In this document: one piece after another, positions 38,977 through 40,731 of the stretch | How positions within the stretch are numbered: the stretch's first letter is position 1 | Layout: every line of letters starts with the position of its first letter | DNA from: Psychrosphaera saromensis | Lineage (GTDB): Bacteria > Pseudomonadota > Gammaproteobacteria > Enterobacterales > Alteromonadaceae | Length of the DNA stretch: 64,000 nucleotides | Assembly: GCF_002954545.1 (NCBI RefSeq) | Contig: NZ_MSCH01000003.1 | Location: 2,147,991-2,211,990, forward strand | Direction: 5' to 3' | The notes under the pieces: generated by a model | Told to the model about the DNA's origin: nothing | Seen by the model: only the letters and a program-made list of their open reading frames with translations | Database searches by the model: none | Translations under genes and position numbers: made by a program

Positions 38977-39192
38977 AATCGGGAGGTAAAGCAGAGCGAA
39001 AAACAAAAGCAAAAGCAGTGCATCTTGTTGAATAGTGTCACTAAAATATAAAATAATTAATTATCTGTATTTATATACAGTTATAATGTATTTCTCCAAA
39101 AATACAGTTTTTTGTGGGAAAAGTGAGCGCTAATATGCTTACTTTCTACATAGGTAAAATTCTAATTTATTGATTTATAGTATTTGATTTTT

Positions 39193-39244
39193 TAAGCACT
39201 GCGTCATACTCAGCACAAGATAGCTGAGTATGACGCAGTGCTTA
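39193..39244. repeat. Perfect 22-bp inverted repeat with 8-nt loop
   Basis: The arms start TAAGCACTGCGTCATACTCA and are exact complements over 22 bp; the loop is ACAAGATA. Neither side has the T-tract of a terminator. It lies about 125 bp upstream of the small cassette-like gene. Role unknown. Confidence 0.75.
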
Positions 39245-39368
39245 GTTTCTACAAACTTAATGTATAAAATAAAACCACCTATTTCACTATAAAGCTTTGA
39301 CAGGTAATGATTTAATTATTATTGTTTTGGTATTTTTTATATTTCATAATTCGTTACTATCGTGAATT

Positions 39369-39617
39369 ATGGATAATATACTGTTATATGCAATGGAAGC
39401 TATGAAGAAACAATATCTAAACTTCGATGATTTAGAGCAATTTGATCAAGAATTTTTTATTAATGATTCTTGGTGTAATTACTGCGATGAAGCTGATCTA
39501 GGAATCATTGAGCCTAAGATTTATATTTTAGATGAAAAGCAATACCTTGAAGGTAATTGTAAAGTTTGTTGTAAAAAACAAACTACTGAAATTGTCGTCA
39601 CATATTTAAATGATTAA
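39369..39617 (+). CDS. Small cysteine-motif protein, integron cassette-like
   Basis: An 82-residue acidic protein. It has two CxxC-type pairs, CNYC near residue 36 and CKVCC near residue 64, which could bind one zinc ion in a ribbon. It is otherwise of unknown function. It lies 22 bp upstream of an attC recombination site, as expected for a gene cassette of a chromosomal integron. No strong ribosome site is visible, which is also common in cassettes. The AT-rich composition differs from the neighbouring thiolase gene. Confidence 0.6.
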   Translation: MDNILLYAMEAMKKQYLNFDDLEQFDQEFFINDSWCNYCDEADLGIIEPKIYILDEKQYLEGNCKVCCKKQTTEIVVTYLND

Positions 39618-39638
39618 GCTTTAAGGTGATGAAATTGC

Positions 39639-39740
39639 ATATAACAAACGCCTTAACTCCGACAATGTTAAGTTGTCATGGTTTTGGCAAACAACGCAAA
39701 AAACCATGCCAACACATTGCGCATTAGGCGGGCGTTGAGG
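39639..39740 (+). other. attC: Integron attC recombination site (VCR-like)
   Basis: The left end ATAACAAACGCCT and right end AGGCGGGCGTTGAGG match the core boxes of Vibrio-type attC sites, with the crossover at G^TT (39734/39735). The inside folds into one long hairpin: CAATG, GTTG and CATGGTTTT on one side pair with AAAACCATG, CAAC and CATTG on the other, with the unpaired bases expected of a single-stranded attC substrate. This is the strongest sign that the area derives from an integron. Confidence 0.8.
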
Positions 39741-39883
39741 CCGTAGAATAACTCTTTTTTAAGAAATATGGCCGATTTTATGGGTTCCAAATGCATTACC
39801 TAGTGCGAAAAAAACGCTTAGCATTTGTTATAGGAACTCGCTTTTTCATCAATTTGGGCTGTTGGAGTAATTCTACAGCCTCG
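39735..39883. repeat. 149-bp structured unit, copy 1 (gene-less cassette or MITE)
   Basis: The unit starts at the attC crossover (G^TTGAGGCC) and ends at the next GTT. Its ends are inverted copies: GAGGCCGTAGAATAACT and AGTAATTCTACAGCCTC pair with two mismatches, and an inner hairpin (GTTCC and AAATGC pairing with GCATTT and GGAAC) lies in the middle. It has no ORF. It is followed directly by copy 2. Confidence 0.85.
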
Positions 39884-40032
39884 TTGAGGCCGTAGAATAA
39901 CTATTTTTTAAGAAAAACGGCCGATTTTATGGGTTCCAAATGCATTACCTAGTGCGATAAAAACGCTTAGCATTTGTTATAGGAACTCGATTTTTCATCA
40001 ATTTTGGCTGTTGGAGTAATTCTACAGCCTCG
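39884..40032. repeat. 149-bp structured unit, copy 2
   Basis: Tandem copy of 39735-39883 with the same length and only scattered base changes (for example TTTTTGGC for TTTGGGC-type positions). It ends at CGTTAGGC, where the next cassette begins. The equal length and GTT borders fit either integrase-made cassette duplication or two insertions of a small element. Confidence 0.85.
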
Positions 40033-40078
40033 TTAGGCTTTCAGTCAATCTTGGCACTAATTATTCATGGAGTTCATA

Positions 40079-40462
40079 ATGAAAAAAACATACTTAATTC
40101 TAGCTTTAACCTTTTCCTGTTCTAGTGCTTTAGCGGCTAATGAAAATGAACTTGAGCAAAAGCTTCCATTAACTTTTAAAATAGCCACCAATCCTCAAAA
40201 GTCAGGTCTCTGTATTGCTGCGAATAGTGTTTTAGGAAATGAAATCAGTGATTTTCGTGAATCTTCAAAGCAAATCAATTCTGTGTTATGGGCTGTAGTT
40301 GAAGAAAAACAAGGCAAAGCTAAAGCAGATATTACTGAACAAATTGCAAATGAACACGCAAGCGCAATGAAATACAATATAGATTGGACTATTAGCCAAA
40401 TGAAAAGCAACGGCTGCTCCGAAGTGAATAGAGAAATATCTGCGTTTTTAGGGGGGAATTAA
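40079..40462 (+). CDS. Small exported protein, cassette gene
   Basis: A 127-residue protein with a signal peptide (MKKTYLILALTFSCSSALAA, cleaved near residue 21). The mature part is helical with two cysteines (GLCIAANS and SNGCSEV) that could pair. I do not recognise the family. ATG 40079 gives the classic signal; an ATG 12 bp upstream is less likely. The cassette border GTTAGGC lies 47 bp upstream. Its stop shares one base with the next start (TAATG), so the two are coupled. Confidence 0.65.
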   Translation: MKKTYLILALTFSCSSALAANENELEQKLPLTFKIATNPQKSGLCIAANSVLGNEISDFRESSKQINSVLWAVVEEKQGKAKADITEQIANEHASAMKYNIDWTISQMKSNGCSEVNREISAFLGGN

Positions 40463-40731
40463 TGAATACCTACAGTAAAAAAGATAATGAATATCAAGAT
40501 AATGGGCACTATATCGTACATGGTATCCACTATATGAGTTTGTATACTTATAGAAATATTCATGGTTTACCGAGGGTTTCACCTGAAATAAATAAGAAAA
40601 TTGGTTTAAGCATTAACCCTCTTCTTTGTGAGCACATTGAAACTTTACCAGATGAAGGTCATTTTAAAATTATAAAAGCTTATAACCTTTCATATTTAAA
40701 AGAACATGAAAGTAATTTATTTGATATTTAA
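40462..40731 (+). CDS. Small protein of unknown function, second gene of the cassette
   Basis: An 89-residue soluble protein rich in Tyr, His and Asn, with no signal peptide and no recognised domain. It is coupled to the exported protein gene by TAATG overlap with GGGGGG as ribosome site. Two-gene cassettes with an exported and a cytosolic product can be toxin-immunity or effector pairs, but nothing in the sequence shows this. GCCTAAC, an attC-like R'' box, follows the stop by 2 bp. Confidence 0.6.
   Translation: MNTYSKKDNEYQDNGHYIVHGIHYMSLYTYRNIHGLPRVSPEINKKIGLSINPLLCEHIETLPDEGHFKIIKAYNLSYLKEHESNLFDI

Follow-up and report, generated by a model that had tools for sequence, protein, structure and literature searches.

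Results

Two tandem units at an integron attC site

In the 64,000-nt stretch of the Psychrosphaera saromensis contig NZ_MSCH01000003.1 analysed here (the window), two 149-bp units stand in tandem at positions 39735-40032, between two integron gene cassettes. Each unit is very probably a 146-bp miniature inverted-repeat transposable element (MITE). An approximately 1.86-kb IS1182-like insertion sequence (IS) most likely supplied the transposase that mobilised it in trans, with duplication of GTT at the attC recombination site. MITE and IS copies have common ends and a common target, GTT lies at both borders, homologous empty sites read GTT once, and orientation is fixed within each class of copies.

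The two units are in register at a spacing of 149 bp and are 96% identical over 149 nt. Each consists of TT, the 146-bp element proper and G, and GTT is present before, between and after the units (Table 1). The ends of the element, GAGGCCGTAGAATAACTC and GAGTAATTCTACAGCCTC, are inverted 18-bp repeats that match at 16 of 18 positions. No open reading frame (ORF) of at least 50 aa overlaps 39735-40032, so that the units are short and without coding capacity. A first-pass annotation of this DNA had described two tandem, near-identical units of the same length with inverted ends and GTT borders, and its coordinates proved exact. It had also noted a hairpin interior and proposed a test of bottom-strand folding. 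The bottom DNA strand of the unit does fold better than most shuffled sequences (z -2.2; 4 of 200 shuffles equally good), as does the RNA of the unit strand (z -3.4; 2 of 200).

Copies of the unit in this and other genomes

A whole-genome search found five copies of the unit in this genome, 89-100% identical, all on one contig and scattered across about 309 kb. Each has G^TT borders, and the reading direction is the same throughout. Matches to the unit were found in 6 of 60 genomes of relatives (own genome included), two of them being only a short weak stretch, and in 24 of 395 genomes of the family (own included; two candidates scored per genome), several of them weak. Six Pseudoalteromonas plasmids also matched, and phage records gave no match to the unit. 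A pattern scan was made with the two ends at a spacing of 105-135 bp and with neither GTT nor attC in the pattern. It returned 22 loci, 20 in the genome collection and 2 in viral contigs. The genome loci span Psychrosphaera, Pseudoalteromonas, Marinomonas, Colwellia, Pseudocolwellia, Paraglaciecola, Shewanella and Psychrobium. GTT is present on both sides in 19 of the 22 loci, and L086, L093 and L099 have one altered border. We then compiled a catalogue by gathering end pairs from all loci irrespective of their flanks and making them non-redundant. This gave 62 distinct MITE-size copies from several marine gammaproteobacteria, with GTT at both borders in 52.

Contigs classed as viral in IMG/VR carry units at attC-type borders (L103, 12427-12572; L104, 2240-2385). 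These are either phage-borne cassettes or misclassified contigs. A search of viral contigs for relatives of the transposase gave five pattern-matching stretches, none of which was a relative.

An IS1182-like element with the same ends

Unpaired ends, among the matches listed in a scan of 20 genomes, led to stretches with the same ends about 1.86 kb apart, and these ends enclose a transposase gene. The best NCBIfam match of the transposase of the first IS copy is IS1182 (E 3e-70). Full-length open transposase frames of 509-531 aa occur in five loci. Their scores against NF033551, by far the best family, are 254.1-268.2 bits and fall just under the curated cut-off of 270 bits; therefore, we call the element IS1182-like. 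The L140 transposase, the one of the five that was scanned against Pfam, matches DUF772 (54.0 bits) and DDE_Tnp_1_6 (98.9 bits) above the gathering scores. We found 23 IS-size end pairs and kept 17, of which 15 have GTT at both borders; the exceptions are L113 (GTT/GCT) and L126 (ATT/ATT). The six discarded pairs (L084 with 2016 bp, L097, L105, L108 twice and L109) join ends of different elements or arose by chance. The terminal inverted repeats of the MITE are also present on the 17 IS-size elements, and the left end of unit 1 matches the right end of the IS in L129, as reverse complement, at 24 of 26 nt. Left and right ends are uniformly oriented in 17 of 17 IS copies.

Of 20 unit- or end-bearing genomes, 17 have a transposase match at E <= 1e-10, several of them as fragments only. 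This genome has one near-complete IS copy, which lies at an attC GTT (L156, 896-2765). In L084 the right end of an IS abuts a MITE with a single GTT between them, and a further GTT follows the MITE. The geometry of this IS-GTT-MITE-GTT junction is the same as that of the tandem in the window. A distant IS1182 gene in G287 has 27% identity; one scan met no terminal repeats there, and we attach no weight to this.

The target is the crossover point of attC

Outside the GTT, the flank consensus is GGC before (G 64, G 71 and C 69 of 78) and A after (75 of 78), which fits the L'-R' end of attC. Left flanks were tested for attC-type pairing, in which an L''-L' match next to AAC was scored with a one-base bulge allowed; the controls were 5000 GTTs from the same loci, which may include some real attC sites. 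Perfect 7/7 pairing was found in 38 of 79 left flanks versus 160 of the 5000 control GTTs; with a threshold of 6/7 the counts rise to 55 flanks and 1399 controls. A strict test without a bulge, which 40 of 79 flanks passed as against 709 of the 5000 controls and 195 of 1580 flanks after shuffling, was too blunt and has been superseded.

The first-pass annotation had proposed a look for empty sites, and these exist. Unoccupied homologous attC sites (at least 88% identity over 70 bp, among the loci) were found for 19 of 76 occupied sites. Among the homologues listed, at most three per site, most read GTT once and a few have changed bases there. Essentially one attC (98.9% over 90 bp) occurs in three states: L101, L061 (in this genome) and L008 have it empty, L025 has it with a MITE and L106 with an IS. 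The site upstream of unit 1 is an attC: about 93% identical unoccupied homologues, each with GTT once, occur in the same genome (L061 and L116). No empty site was found via plasmid flanks or phage flanks, or via the downstream cassette of the window in 395 genomes with two candidates scored per genome. By their sequence context, MITE and IS both appear to lie almost only at the exact cassette-exchange point of integrons.

Orientation classes

The MITEs fall into class A, the class of the window, with 50 copies, and class B with 12, and each class is uniform relative to attC. In 591 of 600 A-B pairs the alignment is better in reverse complement; the same is true of 2 of the 1225 A-A pairs and of none of the 66 B-B pairs. 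Class B was chosen from the tree, and L110 was turned by hand to the attC strand for the orientation comparison. In alignment A1 the two window rows start two bases too early, which affects only the row ends. A symmetric element that inserts randomly would be expected to mix orientations within a class, and such mixing is not seen.

Surroundings of the units in the window

Features of the locus are given in Table 1. By eye, a strong hairpin with 21-bp arms (AAGCACTGCGTCATACTCAGC) lies upstream of the upstream cassette gene at 39194-39243, and a direct repeat of about 40 bp (ttactttgtcatcgtatttatttgaactttaaggtttcgcc) is present at about 38588 and about 38743.

Table 1. Features at and around the tandem units (window coordinates).
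Feature	Position	Strand	Basis
ORF of upstream cassette, 82 aa, no family match	39369..39617	+	ORF list, family scans
attC of upstream cassette, start approximate (TATAAC...), ending in crossover GTT 39734-39736	39638..39736	+	sequence, ~93% identical unoccupied homologues
Inner 14-nt stem of upstream attC	39672-39685/39700-39713	+	
Unit 1, probable MITE, 146 bp, terminal inverted repeats 39737-39754 and 39865-39882	39737..39882	+	
GTT common to units 1 and 2, direct repeat	39883..39885	+	
Unit 2, probable MITE, 146 bp	39886..40031	+	6/146 differences from unit 1
Third GTT, start (R' core) of downstream cassette GTTAGGC	40032..40034	+	
ORFs of downstream cassette, 131 aa and 89 aa, no family match	40067..40731	+	

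Discussion

Our data indicate that the units have the features of a MITE: they are short and non-coding, they have terminal inverted repeats in common with an autonomous element, and they are flanked by a target-site duplication. The first-pass annotation had offered two readings, a gene-less cassette amplified by the integron integrase or a small mobile element that inserts at the attC GTT with a 3-bp duplication. The second is strongly supported by the many copies that have unrelated flanks and the same border, by the empty sites and by the IS1182-like partner. In the proposed mechanism, the transposase would bind the GAGGCTGTAGAATWACTC ends and attack an integron attC at its 3' foot, where cuts staggered by 3 nt would flank the crossover GTT. 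The element would then be inserted in one orientation, and repair would leave GTT on both sides. A second insertion, into a GTT bordering the first element, would have given the tandem pair. Restoration of GTT beside the L' box would leave the attC usable. Of these steps, the staggered cut, mobilization in trans and continued use of the occupied attC are inferred.

Several observations weigh against this explanation. Altered borders were found in 10 of the 62 MITE-size copies: seven have one base changed at one border (L008, L022, L039, L099, L111 and L031 twice), L012 and L014 have an altered left border, and L110 is altered on both sides. In the attC pairing test, 24 of 79 left flanks score below 6/7. 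By eye, many low-scoring flanks are attC sites whose R'' boxes have changed; the flanks of L012, L015, L018 and L039, however, have no clear attC stem. In these four the attC could have been lost later, or could have been deleted on insertion as by IS1272. Similarity between IS and MITE is weak past the repeats, and an IS match of at least 35 bp is present in only 7 of the 62 MITEs. Three of the 20 unit- or end-bearing genomes (G001, G193 and G222) have no transposase match. An intact transposase copy was not found in this genome: the one long match, the gene of the near-complete IS copy in L156, is split over two frames, one of which contains a stop. Class B is class A reversed relative to attC, so that orientation is not fixed in the family as a whole.

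The transposase might recognise attC either by its fold or by the conserved L'-R' sequence. We tentatively consider a further reading, which we hold to be possible but doubtful. The IS1182-like DDE transposase might read the folded attC as the integrase does and insert the IS or MITE one-way at the crossover trinucleotide. The attC would stay recombinogenic and the element would ride as the leader of the next cassette, as a transposon adapted to a harmless life in integrons. Regeneration of GTT, together with element ends that start with GAG, might be what keeps the attC recombinogenic. We take GAG after GTT to fit the core GTTRRRY at 6 of 7 positions.

The tandem pair might go back to a single insertion that was duplicated by replication slippage or unequal recombination, and not to two insertions. 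The perfect head-to-tail register and the one GTT in common are consistent with this origin, which we nevertheless consider rather unlikely. Unit 1 has 5 differences from L006, a copy in a congeneric species, and 6 from unit 2, and therefore two separate insertions seem the more likely, by a small margin in sequence differences so few that the point is a weak one. Unit 2 is equally near to the copy at C6:2445519 and to unit 1 (6 differences each), which is also a weak point. Duplication cannot yield the IS and MITE that stand side by side at one GTT in L084.

Another explanation is that the units are kept as regulatory leaders of the downstream cassette, as a promoter or an RNA hairpin. The units directly precede the start of the next cassette, and promoter activity of gene-less cassettes in Vibrionaceae has been reported (PMC11014356). 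Promoter-like matches around the units are at the level expected from shuffled sequence (2 versus 1.6, sd 1.5), and the units show almost no covariation. No Rfam family reaches its gathering score in window 39000-40500, and the five matches seen there (E 0.018-0.81) were rejected as RNA elements. We give this explanation little probability.

It is still less probable that the units are gene-less integron cassettes, the first option of the first-pass annotation. In that case the palindrome of the unit would fold into an attC-like site, and the integrase would excise and insert the unit. The geometry is exactly that of a cassette (TT...G with G^TT borders), the arrangement is tandem and orientation is constant within a class. 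Of the 20 unit- or end-bearing genomes, 19 have an integron-integrase match above the curated cut-off, although a few of these matches are broken or partial. Such co-occurrence counts for little, however, because any attC-bound element would show the same. In this genome the best integrase match (G000:C6:2441753-2442286, L047) covers positions 1-178 of 315, is below the cut-off and looks truncated. A defining feature of integron gene cassettes is an attC of their own at the 3' end, in which R''(AAC) pairs with R'(GTT). The stem of the unit is bounded by GTT and GTT and not by AAC...GTT, which leaves no R box pairing at the base of the unit, and the border GTTs are unpaired in both folds. A conserved fold of the unit was considered and rejected: the RNAalifold covariation term is -0.01 (40 aligned class A copies), and 4 of 17 predicted pairs are doubly changed, in one sequence each. 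Pairing in the terminal stem of the unit follows from the conservation of the repeats. The transposon explanation is the simpler one, since an IS that encodes a DDE transposase has the same ends and sits at the same point.

In Pseudoalteromonas plasmids, the attC next to the unit points the same way as genes annotated as tyrosine recombinases (L022, 1037-2032; L023, 1540-2535). The usual integron layout is divergent, unlike this arrangement.

The least probable alternative is that the unit is a MITE of another attC-targeting transposase, for example an RNA-guided IS110/IS1111 (seekRNA) element. An IS110-family gene does adjoin one copy (L021). However, IS1111 elements add no target bases and have subterminal repeats (PMC11187229), whereas the units here have repeats at the tips and GTT at either border, in full agreement with the IS1182-like element.

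A stretch homologous to an IS110-family element (so annotated in L021, 2736-3692), ending in TATTATCCATACAA, is found 5' of many different attC sites, directly at their end, with further loci in L192, L195, L203, L211 and L212. The two ends of one attC can therefore be occupied by different elements, an IS110-type element on one side and a MITE or IS of the IS1182 type on the other. In other copies, among them L196, L198 and L209, the attC is present and the second insertion is absent.

To our knowledge, this is the first of the mobile elements using attC that lands on the crossover trinucleotide and repeats it. No prior description of an attC-targeting IS1182-type element or of such a MITE was found in the open-access literature, judged by titles and the starts of abstracts among the matches listed, and a name may exist. 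The gene-less cassettes of Vibrionaceae superintegrons are similar to the units in that they are ORF-less stretches with G^TT borders in arrays. Those cassettes carry their own attC. The unit differs from them in having no attC of its own and in having terminal inverted repeats common to a transposon. ORF-less 149-bp stretches in cassette arrays can be mistaken for gene-less cassettes. The main text of PMC11014356 does not use the terms transposase, insertion sequence, MITE or inverted repeat.

Other elements that target attC are known, among them group IIC introns and members of IS1111. Group IIC-attC introns are associated with integrons and attC (PMC7923331), and they are retroelements, unlike the units here. 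The IS1111-attC group (ISKpn4, ISPst6 and ISPa25) has a DEDD transposase guided by seekRNA, subterminal repeats and no added bases (PMC11187229). The partner element here differs in matching DDE models, in its terminal repeats, in GTT on both sides and in having a MITE derivative. IS1272 and TnSha1 of the IS1182 family have potential stem-loops as targets and insert at or within the stem (PMC5678879; PMC4923244), and the partner IS likewise has a DDE transposase of the IS1182 kind. For IS1272 the same papers describe no primary sequence specificity, a target hairpin that is wholly or partly deleted, and no duplication. Apart perhaps from the few copies without a clear stem, the copies described here do not show this hairpin deletion without duplication. 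Unlike IS1272, the element uses one kind of site, attC, which is kept in most left flanks, and has GTT on both sides. A DDE insertion sequence and its probable MITE join the mobile elements known to land at integron attC sites, and they provide a natural system in which to ask if folded recombination sites can be recognised by a DDE transposase.
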